Positions 55,679 to 64,000 of a stretch of 64,000 bases of DNA are shown piece by piece. A program made the translations under genes and the position numbers. The stretch is from Erwinia endophytica (GTDB lineage Bacteria; Pseudomonadota; Gammaproteobacteria; Enterobacterales; Enterobacteriaceae). Where the stretch lies: positions 1-64,000 of the forward strand of contig NZ_RQVV01000013.1 of the NCBI RefSeq assembly GCF_009295515.1. Direction: 5' to 3'. A model generated the notes under the pieces. That model saw nothing but the letters and a program-made list of their open reading frames with translations. It ran no database searches and was not told where the DNA came from. How positions within the stretch are numbered: the stretch's first letter is position 1; every line of letters begins with the position of its first letter.

Positions 55679-56377
55679 TCACGCTGTCACGTGGACACGC
55701 CGGTATATTCGCCGCGGATGGCCAATTTTGCCGTACTTGCATTCCACGGTCAGGAAGCCGATTTCCACGCAATGTTCCAGATAGCGACGGGTGGTGGTTT
55801 TACTCAGTCCGGTTTCGTTCATCACCTCATCCACTGAAAAACAGCGCGTGGCCTGATGCTCAAACAATTTTTGCACCCGCGCCAGGGTACTCTCTTCAAT
55901 ACCTTTACTGCTGTTATCTTTGCGGTAATTTTTCGCCTGCAGTTGATAGAGTGAGTCAACATTGTGCTGGTCGACAATCTTCCATGTTTGCTGCTGTTCG
56001 GTGAATTGCACAAAACGCGCCAGCGACTGATTTAAACGTTTCCAGGAGACGGGTTTAAGAATGTAATCAAACGCGCCATTGCGGATAGCCTGGCTACAGG
56101 TGTCCATATCACTGGCGGCGGTGATGAAAATCACCGAACAGTTGGCGCGAATAATCAGTGGATCACTGATAAGCGTAATGCCTTTGCCATCCGGAAGAAA
56201 GTTATCGAGCAGAATCAGCCGCGATGAAGTCCTGTTCAGCAACACCCGCGCTTCAGCAAGGGAAGAGGCCATTCCCGCCAGTCTCAAACGCGGATGTTTG
56301 TTGATCAGCTCGGCATAAAGTTGAGCCAGTACATTTTCATCTTCTACTATCAGCACATCTATCAGTTCATGATACAT
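55679..56377 (-). CDS. citB: CitB, response regulator of citrate fermentation
   Basis: A 232-residue response regulator of the CitB/DcuR family. The receiver domain (1-120) has IVEDENVL, phospho-acceptor Asp58 in LILLDNFLPDG and Lys in YILKPVSW. The C-terminal helix-turn-helix is CFSVDEVMNETGLSKTTTRR with YLEHCVEIGFL. The ATG at 56377 gives the normal length; the longer frame overlaps the kinase gene. It overlaps the citA gene by 11 bases. It should bind the AT-rich repeats in the citA-citS interval. Confidence 0.88.
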   Translation of the reverse strand: MYHELIDVLIVEDENVLAQLYAELINKHPRLRLAGMASSLAEARVLLNRTSSRLILLDNFLPDGKGITLISDPLIIRANCSVIFITAASDMDTCSQAIRNGAFDYILKPVSWKRLNQSLARFVQFTEQQQTWKIVDQHNVDSLYQLQAKNYRKDNSSKGIEESTLARVQKLFEHQATRCFSVDEVMNETGLSKTTTRRYLEHCVEIGFLTVECKYGKIGHPRRIYRRVHVTA

Positions 56378-58007
56378 AATTTTGATCTTCCATGAAGAGA
56401 ACGGGGTGAGGGGCGGCATTGCTCGTTTCAGGAATAAACACAGAGAAAGTGGTGCCGCATGGCAGGTTAGCGGAGATATCGATCGAACCACCCGCGTGAG
56501 TGACATAACTGGCGATGAGATACAGACCAATACCATGATCGCCACTGCGTTTGGTGGTTATCCCGCGTTCAAAAATCCGTTCACGTATCGCCGGGTCGAT
56601 ACCGATACCGTGATCCATTACCTCAATAATCAGTTCCCGACGATTAAGCAGGATCAACACTTCCACCGGAGCATGGGGCGGAATAGCGCGCTGAGTGGCC
56701 TCGATAGCGTTATCCAGCAAATTACCAATGATCGAAATCAGCTCGGCTTCGCCAAGAGAATGGCAAGCCTTTTCCATACTGCACAGTGGGTCAAAGATCA
56801 GTGCAATGCCTTTTTCTTGTGCGTGTGCGGCTTTACCAAGTAGCAACCCGCATAATGTCGGTGAGCTAAAGCGTGCAGAGACAAAGTCCAACAGTGCCTG
56901 CGCGTGTTCCGACTGCGACTGAATGTAATGTAGCGCTTCATCATAGCGTTCCATATGCAACAGACCGGAAAGTGTCGTCATGCGGTTTAGTGACTCGTGG
57001 CGCATAATGCGCAGATTATCAACATAGCGTTTTACCTGACTGAGCTGAACGCTCAGCGTGTCGATTTCATTACGATCACGAAAGGTGATAACCCATCCCT
57101 GCAACTTGTCCTCCAGCATAATGCGTACCCTGCTGGCGATCACCGTTAGCTGATTGAAGTGGCAGATTTCGTCATGCGTATCGTTTTTCAGCATCACTTT
57201 CCGGGTGAAAAACGTGACCGGAGCAATCACCTCGCCGATGGTCTGTCCGCACAGGGCCTCGGTGGATTGGCTTAAGTCCAGCAAATGGCGTGCCGCCTGG
57301 TTGATCACTTCAATACGCCGTTCGCTGTCGAGAGCTATCACCCCTTCATAAATGGACTCCATCATGGCTTTTTGCTGTCGTACCAGCAGACCAATTTCGC
57401 GAGGTTCCAGCGAAAAAATCTGCTTTTTAATGCTGCGAGTGAAAAACCAGGAAAAGATAAACAGCGCCGCCAGTAATAATATGATGACAATAGAGATATT
57501 GAGCACTTTGTCCAGGGTGATGACATCGAGGTGGCGAGTCAGATAACCGACCGAGACAATACCGATCACCTGTCCACCATCGTCAAAAATCGGTGCCTTG
57601 CTACGGAGCGAAATACCAAGACCTCCTTCGCGGATGGTAATAGTACTGCGTCCTTGCAGTACGTCTTCATTATCTCCGCCTTCCAGCGGTTTCCCGACTA
57701 CATCGGCACGTACTGAATGAAATAGGTGAATACCTTTGTTATCGCCAATAACAATAAAACTCGCATCGCTGTGTGATACGACTTTTTTCATAAACTGGGT
57801 GAGTGCTGGAATATCTTTTTCGCTAATGGCTTTGCGTAACATTGGAATGATAGCTATTTCTTCTGCCTGTATTTTGGCTCTGGAACTCATTTCCTGGTAT
57901 AGCTGTCGACCCACGTCCTGATAATGAAAAATACCAAGGAGAGTTAAAATAATAGAGAAAAAAAGTATCAGGTAAATAAAAAGTTTAATTTGGAAAGAGA
58001 CTTTCAT
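56367..58007 (-). CDS. citA: CitA, citrate-sensing histidine kinase
   Basis: A 546-residue membrane kinase (an alternative GTG start at 58025 would add 6 residues). It has two membrane segments (about 5-27 and 170-190) around a periplasmic PAS-type sensor domain (EEIAIIPMLRKAI, DASFIVIGDNKGIHLFHS). A cytoplasmic PAS domain follows, then the phospho-accepting His in IMRHESLNRM and an ATPase domain (ISIIGNLLDNAIEAT, DHGIGIDP, GDHGIGLYLI). The length matches Klebsiella CitA. It is divergent from citS. Confidence 0.88.
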   Translation of the reverse strand: MKVSFQIKLFIYLILFFSIILTLLGIFHYQDVGRQLYQEMSSRAKIQAEEIAIIPMLRKAISEKDIPALTQFMKKVVSHSDASFIVIGDNKGIHLFHSVRADVVGKPLEGGDNEDVLQGRSTITIREGGLGISLRSKAPIFDDGGQVIGIVSVGYLTRHLDVITLDKVLNISIVIILLLAALFIFSWFFTRSIKKQIFSLEPREIGLLVRQQKAMMESIYEGVIALDSERRIEVINQAARHLLDLSQSTEALCGQTIGEVIAPVTFFTRKVMLKNDTHDEICHFNQLTVIASRVRIMLEDKLQGWVITFRDRNEIDTLSVQLSQVKRYVDNLRIMRHESLNRMTTLSGLLHMERYDEALHYIQSQSEHAQALLDFVSARFSSPTLCGLLLGKAAHAQEKGIALIFDPLCSMEKACHSLGEAELISIIGNLLDNAIEATQRAIPPHAPVEVLILLNRRELIIEVMDHGIGIDPAIRERIFERGITTKRSGDHGIGLYLIASYVTHAGGSIDISANLPCGTTFSVFIPETSNAAPHPVLFMEDQNYVS

Positions 58008-58025
58008 AACAGAATACACAGTCAC

Positions 58026-58337: not shown

Positions 58338-59705
58338 ATGATGAGTACAACGGATGATGCAATGACGATGACCTCTGAAACGCTGACGATTAAAAAAACG
58401 TCACTGAAGGAGAAGTGGTGGCACATTATGGATACCTGGAAGGTAGGGATTATTCCACTGCCTTTATTTCTACTGGCTGGCGTATTAATTGCCATCGACT
58501 GCCTTTATGGCTCGTTGCCCAGTGATATTGTGGTGATGGTCGCCACGCTGGCGTTCTTCGGTTTTGCCTGCGGCGAGTTCGGTAAACGTCTGCCGATCGT
58601 CGGTAAATTAGGGGCGGCGGCGATCTGCGCGACCTTTATTCCGTCGGCCATGGTCTATTATGGTTTATTGCCGGATACGGTGGTTGAATCCACCACCCGG
58701 TTTTACAAATCCACCAATATTCTCTATCTCTACATTTGCTGCATTATTGTCGGCAGTATTATGAGCATGAATCGCGATACGTTGATTCAGGGCTTCATGC
58801 GTATCTTCTTCCCGATGCTCTGCGGTGAAATCGTTGGCATGTTGGTGGGAATGGGCGTGGGGCTGTCACTGGGGATGGAACCGTTCCAGATCTTCTTCTT
58901 TATCATTCTGCCGATTATGGCCGGCGGGGTGGGAGAAGGCGCTATTCCGCTCTCTATTGGTTATGCCGCATTGTTGCATATGGAGCAGGGCGTTGCGCTC
59001 GGGCGTATATTGCCGATGGTGATGCTCGGTAGCCTGACCGCCATCATTATTTCCGGTTGCCTGAACCAACTGGGTAAACGTTTCCCACATCTGACTGGTG
59101 AAGGGCAATTGATGCCTGACCGCAGAAATGTTGACCAACCCACCGCATCCGCGCCGTTGTTCTCCGCTAAAACCGATGTCACCACTATCGCGGCAGGTGT
59201 TCTGCTGGCGGTACTGCTGTATATGATCGGGATGCTCGGCCATAAATTGATTGGCTTGCCCGCACCGGTTGGCATGTTGTTTGTCGCGGTACTGATCAAG
59301 CTGGTACACGGCGTATCTCCGCGCCTGCTGGAAGGTTCCCAGGTGGTGTACAAATTCTTCCAGACCTCCGTGACTTATCCCATCCTTTTTGCTGTTGGTG
59401 TGGCGATTACGCCATGGCAAGAACTGCTACATGCTTTTACTCTCAATAACCTGTTGGTGATTGTGAGTACGGTCTCCGCACTGGTCGCGACAGGCTTTGT
59501 GGTGGGTAAAAAGATCGGCATGCATCCTATTGATGTGGCCATTATTTCCTGCTGTCAGAGTGGTCAGGGCGGGACCGGGGATGTGGCGATTCTCACGGCG
59601 GGAAACCGCATGAGTCTGATGCCGTTTGCCCAGATAGCCACTCGTATTGGCGGGGCTATCAACGTGTCGGTATCGCTGCTGGTTCTTGGCAATTTCCTTA
59701 TTTGA
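58338..59705 (+). CDS. citS: CitS, citrate/sodium symporter (2-hydroxycarboxylate transporter family)
   Basis: A 455-residue inner-membrane transporter. Both re-entrant-loop signatures of the 2HCT family are present: MAGGVGEGAIPLSIGYAALL and CQSGQGGTGDVAILTAGNRM. KWWHIMDTWKVGIIPLPLFLLAG is a typical opening. It imports citrate with sodium. Two ATGs (58338, 58341) are possible starts. It leads the citrate operon and is divergent from citA. Confidence 0.9.
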   Translation: MMSTTDDAMTMTSETLTIKKTSLKEKWWHIMDTWKVGIIPLPLFLLAGVLIAIDCLYGSLPSDIVVMVATLAFFGFACGEFGKRLPIVGKLGAAAICATFIPSAMVYYGLLPDTVVESTTRFYKSTNILYLYICCIIVGSIMSMNRDTLIQGFMRIFFPMLCGEIVGMLVGMGVGLSLGMEPFQIFFFIILPIMAGGVGEGAIPLSIGYAALLHMEQGVALGRILPMVMLGSLTAIIISGCLNQLGKRFPHLTGEGQLMPDRRNVDQPTASAPLFSAKTDVTTIAAGVLLAVLLYMIGMLGHKLIGLPAPVGMLFVAVLIKLVHGVSPRLLEGSQVVYKFFQTSVTYPILFAVGVAITPWQELLHAFTLNNLLVIVSTVSALVATGFVVGKKIGMHPIDVAIISCCQSGQGGTGDVAILTAGNRMSLMPFAQIATRIGGAINVSVSLLVLGNFLI

Positions 59706-59727: not shown

Positions 59728-60591
59728 ATGAAACTCGCAAGCTTTATCTATCAAGGGATCCGTAGCTACGGCATCGTCAGGGACGATGGCGTGGTTAATC
59801 TGGGGGCGCGGCTTGGCAATCGCTATGTTGATTTGAAATCGCTGCTCGCGGCTAACGCGCTGGATGAGGCGCAACGATTGAGTGGTGAGGCGATAGATAT
59901 TCATTTTGACGCGATCGAATTTCTGCCGGTAATCGATAACCCAGGGAAAATTCTCTGTGTCGGCATGAATTACGCCGAAAAGCGCAAAGAATTCGATCAA
60001 CACAACCCGGCGCCGACATTGTTCGTCCGCTTTGCGGACTCACAAACCGGCCATAACACCCCCATTCTGAAACCACGTTACTCCAGTGAGTTTGACTATG
60101 AAGGTGAGCTGGCGGTGATCATCGGGACCGGTGGCGAAGATATTCCCCGAGAGGTTGCGCTCAGCCATGTCGCTGGCTACAGCTGCTATATGGATGGTTC
60201 CGCGCGTGACTGGCAGCATAGCTGGTTTACCGCAGGAAAAAACTGGCGGCAGACCGGCGCATTTGGTCCGTGGATGACCACGGCCGATGAGATCCCGGAT
60301 CCGCATCAACTGGCGATCCGTACCTGGTTGAATGGCCACATGGTACAGGACGATAACACTTGCCACATGATCCATCAGGTTGCCGAGCTTATCGAATACA
60401 TCAGTACCTTTACTCGCCTGGCGCCTGGTGACGTGATCATCACTGGTTCGCCTGGCGGAGTGGGAAAGAAACGTAACCCGCCGCTCTTTATGCAGGCAGG
60501 TGATTGTATTGAAGTGGAGATCGAAAACATCGGCCACCTCAGTAACGTGATTATCGATGCGCCAGCTCATGCGTTGACGGCGGCGCACTAA
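59728..60591 (+). CDS. fumarylacetoacetate-hydrolase-family protein in the citrate operon
   Basis: A 287-residue protein of the FAH superfamily. The core has LCVGMNYAEKRKEF, SSEFDYEGELAVIIG (metal-binding Glu residues), GYSCYMDGSARDWQ and DVIITGSPGGVGKKRNPPLFMQAGD. Its best guess is an oxaloacetate decarboxylase or tautomerase, because some FAH proteins (FAHD1 and FAHD2 types) act on oxaloacetate and this gene lies between citS and citC. The ATG at 59728 follows AGGAACGAAT and comes 22 bases after citS. Classical citrate clusters have oadGAB for the same step, and no oad gene is in the window. The function is an inference. Confidence 0.8.
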   Translation: MKLASFIYQGIRSYGIVRDDGVVNLGARLGNRYVDLKSLLAANALDEAQRLSGEAIDIHFDAIEFLPVIDNPGKILCVGMNYAEKRKEFDQHNPAPTLFVRFADSQTGHNTPILKPRYSSEFDYEGELAVIIGTGGEDIPREVALSHVAGYSCYMDGSARDWQHSWFTAGKNWRQTGAFGPWMTTADEIPDPHQLAIRTWLNGHMVQDDNTCHMIHQVAELIEYISTFTRLAPGDVIITGSPGGVGKKRNPPLFMQAGDCIEVEIENIGHLSNVIIDAPAHALTAAH

Positions 60592-60607: not shown

Positions 60608-61648
60608 ATGCAAGCACAATGGCCGATTGATTTCCGCGTGGTGGAAGTGAACCGCAACCCTCGCTCGCTGGCCGCGATCCGCACCTTGCTCTCCGGCAAT
60701 GGACTGGGTCTGGACCGTGACATCACCACCTTTGTTGCCGCCTGGTCGGGAGAGCGGTTGATGGGGTGCGCTGGTCTTGCCGCCAATGTTATCAAGTGTG
60801 TGGTAGTGGATGAACAACTGCGTGGTGAAAACCTCAGTGCGCGGCTGCTGGCGGAAGTGGAACAGCTTGCGCTGGCTCGCGGACATTTTCATCTGTTTCT
60901 GTATACCCGTTCCTGTCACCGGGAGCGTTTTCAGCACAATGGTTTCTGGCCCATCGCCGAGAGCTCTAACCATGCACTCCTGATGGAGAACACGCCGCAG
61001 GGCCTCCAGCGTTACTGTCGTTCGCTACAGGCAAGTCGTATGCCGGGACAGCGTATTGGCGCGATAGTGATGAACGCCAATCCTTTTACTCTGGGACACC
61101 GTTATTTGGTGGAGCAGGCTGCGCGAGCATGCGACTGGTTACAGTTGTTTGTCGTGCGTGAAGACGCGTCGTTCTTTCCCTTCTCGACCCGGTTGAAAAT
61201 GGTACAAGCGGGCGTGGCTCATCTGCCGAATGTCACGGTACATCAAGGTTCTCACTACATTATCTCCCGCGCTACTTTTCCTGCCTACTTCCTGAAAGAG
61301 CACAGTGAAGTGCAACAGGCGTGGAGTGAGATAGATCTGCTTATTTTTCGCAATGCGATAGCCCCGGCGCTGGGGATTACTCATCGCTTCATCGGCAGCG
61401 AGCCGTTTTGTGAAATAACCCGGCAGTACAATCAATCTATGCACCAGTTATTAGCGGGAGCGGTAGATGTCGTGGAGATCCAACGGATTAGCACTGCCGG
61501 TCATGTTATTTCCGCATCGGAAGTGCGTCGTTTACTTAACACTCAGCAGTTTTCCAGACTTCGGGACATGGTGCCGGATACCACTTTCGCGTATCTCGAC
61601 CCTTGTTACCGTGCGGAACTCGCTGAGGAATCAGGAATATCGTTATGA
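60608..61648 (+). CDS. citC: CitC, [citrate (pro-3S)-lyase] ligase
   Basis: A 346-residue enzyme that acetylates the phosphoribosyl-dephospho-CoA arm of citrate lyase to activate it. An N-terminal GNAT-like domain (about 10-130) precedes the nucleotidyl-transferase-like domain with GAIVMNANPFTLGHRYLVEQ and ISASEVRRLL. It begins 16 bases after the FAH gene and overlaps citD by 4 bases. The length fits the family. Confidence 0.9.
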   Translation: MQAQWPIDFRVVEVNRNPRSLAAIRTLLSGNGLGLDRDITTFVAAWSGERLMGCAGLAANVIKCVVVDEQLRGENLSARLLAEVEQLALARGHFHLFLYTRSCHRERFQHNGFWPIAESSNHALLMENTPQGLQRYCRSLQASRMPGQRIGAIVMNANPFTLGHRYLVEQAARACDWLQLFVVREDASFFPFSTRLKMVQAGVAHLPNVTVHQGSHYIISRATFPAYFLKEHSEVQQAWSEIDLLIFRNAIAPALGITHRFIGSEPFCEITRQYNQSMHQLLAGAVDVVEIQRISTAGHVISASEVRRLLNTQQFSRLRDMVPDTTFAYLDPCYRAELAEESGISL

Positions 61649-61938
61649 ATATTGTGAGGGAAGCACTGGTCGGGACGTTGGAGTCCAGTGACCTGAGGGT
61701 GAAAGTTGCCCCCGCCGCAGGTGAGCTGGATATTGTTATTCACAGCGAAGTGATCAAACAGTTTGGTGATCAGATCCACCAGGTGGTGAACGCCACATTG
61801 CGTGCAATGGAGGTGAATCAGGGGTTGATCATTATTGAAGATAAAGGCGCGCTGGATTGTGTGATCCGCGCTCGTCTGCAAAGCGCTATTCTGCGTGCCG
61901 CCGATGTCAGTGAGAGCGACTGGGGGAAACTGCTGTGA
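61645..61938 (+). CDS. citD: CitD, citrate lyase acyl-carrier protein (gamma subunit)
   Basis: A 97-residue acyl carrier. The prosthetic group attaches to Ser14 in [10 protein letters not shown], and the rest of the small fold ([29 protein letters not shown]) is conserved. Overlaps at both ends (ATGA and GTGA junctions) show tight coupling with citC and citE. Confidence 0.93.
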
Positions 61939-62810
61939 GAAAACTTCGTCGTAGCATGTTATTTCTACCGGGTGCTAACGCCGCCATGCTCTCCACTGCC
62001 TTTGTCTATCGACCGGATTCAATCATGTTCGACCTGGAGGATGCGGTGGCTCTGCGTGAAAAAGACAGTGCGCGTTTGCTGGTATTTCATGCTCTGCAAC
62101 ATCCGATGTACCAGGATATCGAAACGGTGGTGCGGATCAACCCGTTGAATACACCATTTGGCTTGCCGGATCTGGAGGCGGTGGTCCGCGCGGGGGTTGA
62201 TGTGGTGCGTTTACCGAAAACGGATACCCCGGAAGATATTCACGAGCTGGAACGTCACCTGGCGCGTATCGAACGGGCTTGTGGGCGTGAAGTAGGCTCA
62301 ACCCGGTTAATGGCGGCGATAGAATCTGCAATTGGCGTGATTAACGCGGTGGCCATTGCCCGTAGTTCTCCACGTTTGATTGGTATTGCGTTGGCGGCCT
62401 TTGATTATGTGATGGATATGCAAACTGAGCGAGGCGACGGCACCGAGCTGTTTTATGCCCGCTGCGCCGTGTTGCATGCTGCCCGCGCGGCTGGCATTGA
62501 CGCCTTCGACGTGGTGTGGTCGGACGTGAATGATGAAGCCGGTTTCCTGCGGGAAGTTGAGTTGGCGCGCAAGATGGGTTTTAACGGTAAGTCGTTGATC
62601 AACCCGCGTCAAATTGAGCTCCTGCATAATGCTTACGCGCCAACCCAACAGGAAGTTGAGTACGCCCAACGGGTTATCGCAGCGGCAGAAGAGGGGGAAC
62701 GCAATGGCCTGGGAGTGGTGTCGCTAAACGGCAAAATGATCGACGCTCCTGTTATTAACCATGCCCAGAGGGTACTGGAACGTGCGGCTGCATCCGGCAT
62801 CCGTCGTTAA
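61935..62810 (+). CDS. citE: CitE, citrate lyase beta subunit (citryl-ACP lyase)
   Basis: A 291-residue HpcH/HpaI-fold lyase that splits citryl-ACP to oxaloacetate and acetyl-ACP. Landmarks are [65 protein letters not shown] and [11 protein letters not shown]. The start is a GTG at 61935, overlapping the citD stop. Length is normal. Confidence 0.93.
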
Positions 62811-62821
62811 GGACAGAAACC

Positions 62822-64000
62822 ATGAATCTCACAGAACTTCGCCAGATTAACCTTCCGCATTTGCCTGATTTAAAACTCTTTGACAGTGCCAGTGCGGCCA
62901 CCCCGTGGTTGGCGGAGGTGAATATGAAGCACCGACGTAAGCTGTGCGCGTCGCTGGAAGAGGCGATCACGCGCAGTGGATTGCAAGACGGTATGACTAT
63001 TTCATTCCACCACGCGTTTCGCGAAGGCGACCGGGTGATTAATCATGTGGTCGCCATGCTGGCGCGGTTGGGTTTTAAAAATCTGACACTGGCTTCCAGT
63101 TCGCTGATGGCCTGCAATGATGCACTGATCGAGCCTATTCAGAGCGGAGTGATCACTCGCATCTATACTTCCGGGCTACGCGGAAAGCTGGCTGAGGCCA
63201 TCTCTCATGGTTTAATGGACGAACCCGTGCAGATCCACTCACATGGCGGCCGTGTAAAACTGTTGCAGGATGGCGAGCTGAAAATTGATGTCGCTTTTCT
63301 TGGCGTACCGTGTAGCGATGAATTCGGTAACGCTAACGGCACACAGGGTCAATCTGCCTGCGGTTCATTGGGTTATGCGATGGTGGATGCCCAATTTGCT
63401 CAGAAAGTGATATTGCTGACCGAAGAACTGGTGCCGTTCCCCAATATGCCTGCCAGCCTCAGCCAGGATCAGGTGGATATGATAGTCCAGGTAGAGAGTG
63501 TAGGCGATGCGGAGAAAATCAGTGTTGGCGCCGCTCGTGTCACCAGCAACCCGCGCGAACTGATGATTGCCCGCTATGCGACGGAGGTGATTGAACACTC
63601 TGGCTATTTTAACGACGGTTTTTCCCTGCAGACGGGGTCTGGCGCGGCAGCAACGGCGGTGACCCAGTTTATGGCCGAGAAAATGGTGCGTCATGGCGTG
63701 AAAGCGCGTTTTGCCCTTGGTGGTATCACTGGCAGTCTGGTGGCGTTGCATGAGCAAGGGTTGATTGAAAAATTGCTTGATACCCAGTGCTTTGACGGTG
63801 TGGCGGCGGACTCTCTGCGCCGTAATCCGAACCACGTCGAAATCTCTACCAATGAGTACGCTAATCCTGGCAGTAAAGCGGCCTGCTGTGATCAACTGGA
63901 TGTGGTTATCCTCAGTGCGCTGGAGATTGATATCGACTTCAACGTCAATGTTATTACCGGATCTGATGGCGTGATGCGCGGGGCGTCTGGTGGTCACTGC
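62822..64000 (+). CDS. citF: CitF, citrate lyase alpha subunit (citrate CoA-transferase), 3' end beyond the window
   Basis: An open frame of 393 codons from the ATG at 62822 to the last base of the window with no stop. It would be about 505 residues when complete. It catalyses exchange of the acetyl-ACP for citryl-ACP. Landmarks are MTISFHHAFREGDRV, GVPCSDEFGNANGTQGQSAC and FSLQTGSGAAATAVTQFM, with GVMRGASGGHC at the end of the window. GGACAGAAACC precedes the start. citX and citG, if present, lie outside the window. Confidence 0.93.
   Translation, partial: MNLTELRQINLPHLPDLKLFDSASAATPWLAEVNMKHRRKLCASLEEAITRSGLQDGMTISFHHAFREGDRVINHVVAMLARLGFKNLTLASSSLMACNDALIEPIQSGVITRIYTSGLRGKLAEAISHGLMDEPVQIHSHGGRVKLLQDGELKIDVAFLGVPCSDEFGNANGTQGQSACGSLGYAMVDAQFAQKVILLTEELVPFPNMPASLSQDQVDMIVQVESVGDAEKISVGAARVTSNPRELMIARYATEVIEHSGYFNDGFSLQTGSGAAATAVTQFMAEKMVRHGVKARFALGGITGSLVALHEQGLIEKLLDTQCFDGVAADSLRRNPNHVEISTNEYANPGSKAACCDQLDVVILSALEIDIDFNVNVITGSDGVMRGASGGHC

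Follow-up and report, generated by a model that had tools for sequence, protein, structure and literature searches.

An FAH-superfamily gene in the citrate lyase operon of Erwinia endophytica and its possible role in oxaloacetate disposal

What does a gene of the fumarylacetoacetate hydrolase (FAH) superfamily do in a citrate lyase operon? In anaerobic citrate breakdown, E. coli reduces oxaloacetate to succinate. The cit operons of lactic acid bacteria encode CitM, a soluble, non-pumping oxaloacetate decarboxylase that belongs to the malic enzyme family and has a fold unrelated to FAH. Klebsiella is reported to break down citrate anaerobically with a sodium-pumping decarboxylase (PMC2735749). 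The Erwinia endophytica DNA analyzed here, a 64,000-nucleotide stretch hereafter called the window, carries an FAH gene next to its citrate lyase genes and, as the first-pass annotation had stated, no oadGAB genes for such a pump. Our analyses suggest that many citrate-splitting bacteria carry an FAH gene ahead of their citrate lyase genes and that its product probably disposes of oxaloacetate.

Gene organization of the citrate lyase locus

The FAH gene encodes a protein of 287 amino acids and is flanked by a citrate-type transporter gene and citC, with gaps of 22 and 16 bp, respectively (Table 1); the open reading frame, its coordinates and its tight spacing were confirmed as first described. 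The citC, citD and citE products exceed their NCBIfam cut-offs, as does citF, whose score is that of the part inside the window. Past the window end follow citX (179 bits, cut-off 105.25) and then citG (301.4 bits, cut-off 272.3). A minus-strand regulator pair (55679-58025) diverges from the plus-strand transporter–FAH–citCDEF series, the start of the response regulator being chosen as the Met ahead of YHELID.

Table 1. Features of the citrate lyase locus and of the FAH gene within it
Feature	Position in window	Strand	Evidence or remark
CitB/DpiA-like response regulator, divergent	55679..56377	-	NF007467 185 bits, under cut-off 264
CitA/DpiB-like sensor kinase, divergent	56367..58025	-	NF011627 466.6 bits, under cut-off 656
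CitW-like 2HCT citrate transporter	58338..59705	+	PF03390 465.1 bits; under CitS cut-off
FAH-superfamily gene, putative oxaloacetate decarboxylase/tautomerase	59728..60591	+	PF01557 206.4 bits; fold prediction; synteny with Pectobacterium 'citY'
K85-E88 codons, lid position of FAHD1 His30/Glu33, Lys replacing His	59980..59991	+	alignment
E125, E127, D156, R160, Q163, K171 codons	60100..60240	+	FAHD1 counterparts E71, E73, D102, R106, Q109, K123
citC, citrate lyase ligase	60608..61648	+	TIGR00124 411.6 bits, cut-off 262.1
citD, citrate lyase acyl carrier protein	61645..61938	+	TIGR01608 101.1 bits, cut-off 63.5
citE, citrate lyase beta subunit	61935..62810	+	TIGR01588 481.7 bits, cut-off 443.4
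citF, citrate lyase alpha subunit	62822..64000, on to contig position 64348	+	TIGR01584 582 bits, cut-off 501.45

The gene upstream of FAH had been annotated as citS, an identification that we rejected. The protein scores 218.9 bits against NF047943, for which the cut-off is 600, and shares ∼29% identity with a CitS-type protein from an Oad-linked locus. It is a CitW-like 2HCT carrier, 82 to 83% identical to syntenic Pectobacterium proteins and the syntenic match of the Pectobacterium gene named citW (PMC7843439), whose product is described in that paper as a citrate/acetate antiporter. Indeed, the gene order is the same as in the Pectobacterium cluster citAB-citW-citYCDEFXG (PMC7843439), where citY is the FAH gene by synteny (L094). 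The accessible portions of that paper place citY in the citYCDEFXG operon and state no function for it. The name is ambiguous because citYZ has been used for a two-component system in Klebsiella (PMC2735749). The Klebsiella cluster, citS-oadGAB-citAB plus citCDEFG, resembles the window locus in its citrate lyase genes, its regulators of the CitAB type and its 2HCT carrier, but it has CitS and the sodium pump OadGAB where the window has the CitW-like carrier and FAH (PMC2735749). A literature search, with most subscription journals outside its coverage, found no paper joining citrate lyase, fumarylacetoacetate hydrolase and operon, and the titles and abstract starts among the matches listed gave FAH proteins no oxaloacetate role in citrate breakdown.

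The search for OadA and OadB was extended to the whole E. endophytica genome (61 contigs, 4.23 Mb, completeness 99.99%). There were zero PF03977 matches (OadB) across the genome, and no OadA match reached the cut-off, the best scoring 59.5 against 756.5 bits. Genes of the LDH/MDH family are present, as are genes for fumarate reductase, PEPCK and malic enzyme. Another FAH protein, resembling YcgM, is encoded on contig 24, and the possibility that the window protein is itself the housekeeping YcgM protein was therefore rejected.

Recurrence of the FAH gene in oxaloacetate-producing operons

Citrate lyase loci were surveyed in 295 genomes of the order, a sample weighted to Orbaceae, with thresholds of E<=1e-60 for FAH and OadB and E<=1e-100 for citF. 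FAH was found in 33 genomes, citF in 39 (44 loci) and OadB in 142. In 30 of the 44 loci an FAH gene lies no more than 12 kb from citF, as against 3 with OadB within 15 kb; none has both, and 11 have neither. The arrangement in the window is thus a common operon type and is not peculiar to one genome. By hand count, FAH-type loci are found in 8 genera, Oad-type loci in 3 and loci with neither in 10, one genus having both types. Nine of 39 FAH matches are distant from citF. OadB is encoded elsewhere in the genome in two cases of the FAH type (G163 and G186) and three of the 'neither' class (G074, G185 and G226), which we count against a decarboxylase function for FAH.

The citrate lyase locus has three layouts: FAH-type, Oad-type and a type with a CitT-like DASS carrier. 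FAH-type loci have as neighbors a CitW-like 2HCT carrier, or PrpF and MFS genes (in which case AcnB follows citrate lyase), or an AEC carrier. Two of the three Oad-type loci (L059 and L153) have a CitS-like 2HCT carrier, and the stretch read of the third (L154) shows none. A CitT-like DASS carrier is present in 10 of the 11 'neither' loci (nine by Pfam, L160 by identity); the remaining one, L152, is cut by a contig end. CitT is a citrate/succinate exchanger, and such a carrier would fit reduction of oxaloacetate to succinate. Even at E<=1e-3, the 11 'neither' stretches gave no FAH match. This absence favors decarboxylation as the function of FAH, since a tautomerase serving malate dehydrogenase (MDH) would be expected there too. 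Exceptions are three PrpF-type loci (L052, L108 and L110) in which FAH and a DASS carrier occur together, and these we count against the decarboxylase function. Three loci were seen in genome G186: a citrate lyase locus with CitS and Oad, an FAH locus of the PrpF type, and L043 (8116-11622), a remnant that retains a CitW-like carrier, FAH and a citC divided over two ORFs. No citDEF genes lie near L043, which is probably an operon copy in decay.

Of the 30 FAH-type loci, all but the second locus of G169 were opened, and in each of these 29 FAH is immediately 5′ of citC, on the same strand. In a set of named genomes comprising the best 80 of 572 confirmed places, FAH is directly before citC in 52, with gaps between matches of 14 to 175 bases (median 32); upstream of it stand a 2HCT gene in 46, PrpF and MFS genes in 5 and an AEC carrier gene in 1. 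Such regularity, with three kinds of upstream gene, argues strongly against FAH being a bystander that plays no part in citrate breakdown and owes its place to chance or co-transcription alone, and we regard that explanation as highly improbable. Among the other 28 of these best 80 of 572, 3 are near Oad genes, 1 has its cit genes reordered and 24 lack citC, citE and Oad in the retrieved stretch. Named hosts in which FAH stands with citrate lyase include, among the matches listed, Kosakonia, Phytobacter, Enterobacter, Raoultella, Kluyvera, Pectobacterium, Dickeya, Aeromonas, Gilliamella, Uliginosibacterium and Paludibacterium.

Eight loci (L052, L057, L058, L095, L098, L105, L108 and L110) combine LysR, a PrpF-like isomerase, MFS, FAH, the citrate lyase genes and aconitase B. 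In L052 and L057, AcnB scores over its cut-off (1379 and 1403 bits), and the PrpF-like protein is by score a 4-oxalomesaconate tautomerase (518 and 509 bits against a cut-off of 440); its role as an aconitate isomerase is therefore one that we infer. Operons of this type likely serve the breakdown of aconitate isomers via isomerase, aconitase B and citrate lyase. FAH also occurs with tartrate genes. Specifically, in Kosakonia oryzendophytica (L143) it lies directly downstream of the genes for the two L(+)-tartrate dehydratase subunits, which at 533.6 and 370.2 bits exceed their cut-offs, and in Vogesella margarita (L123) both subunits (537.6 and 374.2 bits) are followed by one chemoreceptor gene and then FAH. 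Oxaloacetate is the product common to the PrpF/aconitase B/citrate lyase and the L-tartrate dehydratase settings. Oad, too, is reported from two settings, the citrate cluster and the vicinity of ttdA/ttdB (PMC2735749), and the same two kinds of operon therefore appear to recruit either enzyme, depending on the bacterium.

Strict mutual exclusion of FAH and Oad was rejected on the evidence of three loci. In a citrate lyase locus of Tolumonas osonensis (L109), FAH is next to OadA (933 bits) and OadB (612 bits), both complete. In Formivibrio citricus it lies by Oad-like genes, with OadB at 435 bits in L131 and an OadA model match of 673 bits, under the cut-off, in L141. The retrieved Formivibrio stretches (L131 7980-12233 and L141 1151-3652) hold no citrate lyase genes. 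In Azospirillum thermophilum (L171), FAH follows a malic enzyme gene within a citrate lyase operon.

Relatives with 54 to 64% identity are found with LeuCD-like, ManD-like and MR/MLE enzymes, with a D-Glu racemase and an oligopeptide transporter, and with others. Because these neighbors are so diverse, membership in the subfamily leaves the substrate unfixed, and on present evidence the subfamily is not confined to oxaloacetate pathways. A module of MFS, LeuC/LeuD-like dehydratase, FAH relative and LysR was seen in L172 (2576-8765), on the Klebsiella pneumoniae plasmid pKP12 (IncHI1B) beside IS elements, and in L173 (1998-10377), on an island of E. coli FAM21845 by tRNA-Asn with an integrase. 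In L174 (4638-7963) and L175 (4444-7903), the gene for an FAH relative stands between one for a DHDPS-family protein and one for an anaerobic C4-dicarboxylate transporter, the three coming after a LacI regulator. The DHDPS–FAH–transporter row was present in 2 of the 3 E. coli records opened, and DNA matches to the FAH gene were found in 18 of 5426 E. coli genomes.

Family assignment and active site of the FAH protein

The neighborhoods with dehydratases and other catabolic genes among the 54 to 64% relatives, together with the DHDPS-family protein adjoining the E. coli relatives found by DNA, would be in keeping with an enzyme that acts on some other 2-oxo acid (an oxaloacetate/pyruvate condensation or damage product, or a 2,4-dioxo acid) and serves several acid pathways. 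The family searches bear on this alternative. The protein belongs to PF01557 (FAA_hydrolase), scoring 206.4 bits against a gathering score of 23.9, and has 6 NCBIfam matches, none of which reaches its cut-off. The best of these, NF053535, 2,4-didehydro-3-deoxy-L-rhamnonate hydrolase, speaks for the alternative at 167.4 bits, but its cut-off is 500. TIGR02303 (HpaG C-terminal decarboxylase/isomerase) gave 163.5 bits against 276.4, and NF007967 (PRK10691), presumably the YcgM-type model, 95.6 against 201. Also arguing against another 2-oxo acid are the linkage to citrate lyase, which is steady whatever the carrier, and the active-site lysine described below; we consider this alternative unlikely.

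The predicted structure is an ordinary FAH fold (mean pLDDT 80.5, with low confidence near residues 81-90 and 161-172) that best matches Corynebacterium glutamicum fumarylpyruvate hydrolase and Bacillus subtilis YisK. The fold is shared with Cg1458, the soluble oxaloacetate decarboxylase of C. glutamicum, with 26 to 34% identity over the Foldseek-aligned parts. To our knowledge, Cg1458 is not part of any citrate operon.

Residues E125, E127, D156, R160, Q163 and K171 are invariant across the 116 distinct stretches with 54% identity or more, that of the window among them. As befits a superfamily member, these comprise E125, E127 and D156, which we take to be the two Glu and one Asp metal ligands. 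Numbering relative to FAHD1 was counted on the alignment, and the K171 assignment rests on gapped alignments; the roles of the FAHD1 residues are those given in PMC8398924 and PMC7116474. Q163 corresponds to FAHD1 Q109 by the equal spacing D-x3-R-x2-Q. The Cg1458 counterpart of Q109 is Q154, a Gln reported to be needed for decarboxylation by Cg1458 (PMC7116474). D156 and R160 match FAHD1 D102 and R106, whose double mutation is reported to abolish FAHD1 tautomerase activity (PMC10825186), and the protein thus also has the OAT1-type residues.

The lid differs. FAHD1 His30 is described as part of a His-Glu lid dyad (PMC8398924, PMC7116474). In its place the window protein has Lys85, as do all 116 distinct stretches, whereas Glu88 is retained in 115 of 116; the hydrolytic His-Glu dyad is thus lacking, and the replacement of His by Lys argues against the usual hydrolytic role. 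Beyond the set of at least 54% identity, a relative at 53.8% has Lys, and four others, all below 42%, have His (2) or Arg (2). His occupies the lid position in 10 of 10 PDB relatives with printed alignments. The OAT1-type tautomerases FAHD1, E. coli YcgM and B. subtilis YisK share the FAH fold with the window protein, which keeps the E-E-D-R-Q-K set of FAHD1, but they have His where its subfamily has Lys, and the window gene differs in standing in a citrate lyase operon. Lys85 was rejected as a marker of citrate-linked members only: all retrieved relatives that reach 54% identity have it, irrespective of their neighbors, and it is therefore of no use for that purpose. In a quick tree with many weak forks, most citrate-linked proteins fell in one group with LeuCD-linked ones.

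Decarboxylation, tautomerization and the fate of oxaloacetate

The proposal that the FAH protein is either an oxaloacetate decarboxylase or a tautomerase is supported in part by a genome with no OadB and no OadA over the cut-off, by the linkage to citrate lyase and by neighbors that make oxaloacetate. We put at roughly 50% the probability that FAH is a soluble, biotin-free, non-pumping oxaloacetate decarboxylase whose cycle includes keto-enol conversion. In the scheme that we infer for the substrate, reaction, metal need and physiology of the FAH protein, citrate would enter through the CitW-like carrier, perhaps against acetate, and would be split by citrate lyase into acetate and oxaloacetate. 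The soluble, metal-dependent FAH enzyme would then convert oxaloacetate to pyruvate and CO2, and pyruvate would yield acetate and formate. Retention of all six FAHD1 binding and catalytic residues, the Gln included, counts for the decarboxylase.

FAH might possibly be an OAT1-like oxaloacetate keto-enol tautomerase that keeps the keto form available for MDH, Oad, malic enzyme or a transaminase, a reading to which we give some, though limited, credence. All ten FAHD enzymes tested, E. coli YcgM included, are reported to be strong tautomerases with slight decarboxylase activity, on average ∼20,000-fold better as tautomerases (PMC10825186); a review disputes that decarboxylation by FAHD1 is minor (PMC12176266). 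Dehydratases recur as FAH neighbors. The company of Oad genes in Tolumonas and Formivibrio and of malic enzyme in Azospirillum would also suit a tautomerase, and it counts against the decarboxylase, since a second decarboxylase there looks redundant. Against a tautomerase count the lack of FAH in the 11 'neither' stretches, 10 of which have a CitT-like carrier and where MDH would have the greatest need of keto-oxaloacetate, and the YcgM-like protein that the window genome already encodes.

The Orbaceae offer a further test. The set consists of the 10 genomes with the operon, the label of this family (f27) resting on FAH stretches identical to those of named Gilliamella. OadB (E<=1e-60), the fumarate reductase/succinate dehydrogenase flavoprotein (E<=1e-80) and LDH/MDH-family MDH each gave 0 of 10; PF02866 was found in 4 of 10, all four being L-lactate dehydrogenases over the NCBIfam cut-off. 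PEPCK was found in 1 of 10. The screen covered these oxaloacetate enzymes together with malic enzyme and Ldh_2. Orbaceae thus retain FAH though all 10 genomes lack matches to this MDH and to the flavoprotein as well as to OadB, and decarboxylation is therefore favored over tautomerization. Against the decarboxylase stand a malic enzyme-like protein in 9 of 10 (4 of the 9 typed), which might itself decarboxylate oxaloacetate, and an Ldh_2 protein in 5 of 10, which might reduce it; one genome, G102, matches neither malic enzyme nor Ldh_2. The operon FAH is the sole PF01557 protein in 7 of the 10 genomes (G221, G211, G143, G117, G102, G270 and G261).

More tentatively, and with real doubt, the Lys85 subfamily could form a separate class of biotin-free oxaloacetate decarboxylases in citrate, aconitate and tartrate operons, in which the lid dyad has turned into a lysine-based site and Lys85 acts as a proton donor or forms an imine. 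If so, anaerobic citrate breakdown would have, besides Oad and CitM, a third kind of enzyme for its oxaloacetate step.

Because the operon dedicates one FAH enzyme to an oxaloacetate-producing pathway, it would provide a sharp test of the dispute over whether FAH enzymes are decarboxylases or tautomerases. If the decarboxylase reading is correct, many Enterobacterales, bee-gut Orbaceae and some other Pseudomonadota would need no sodium pump to break down citrate, aconitate and perhaps tartrate, and the FAH layout would be a common third layout, with a dedicated enzyme, beside the Oad pump and reduction to succinate.
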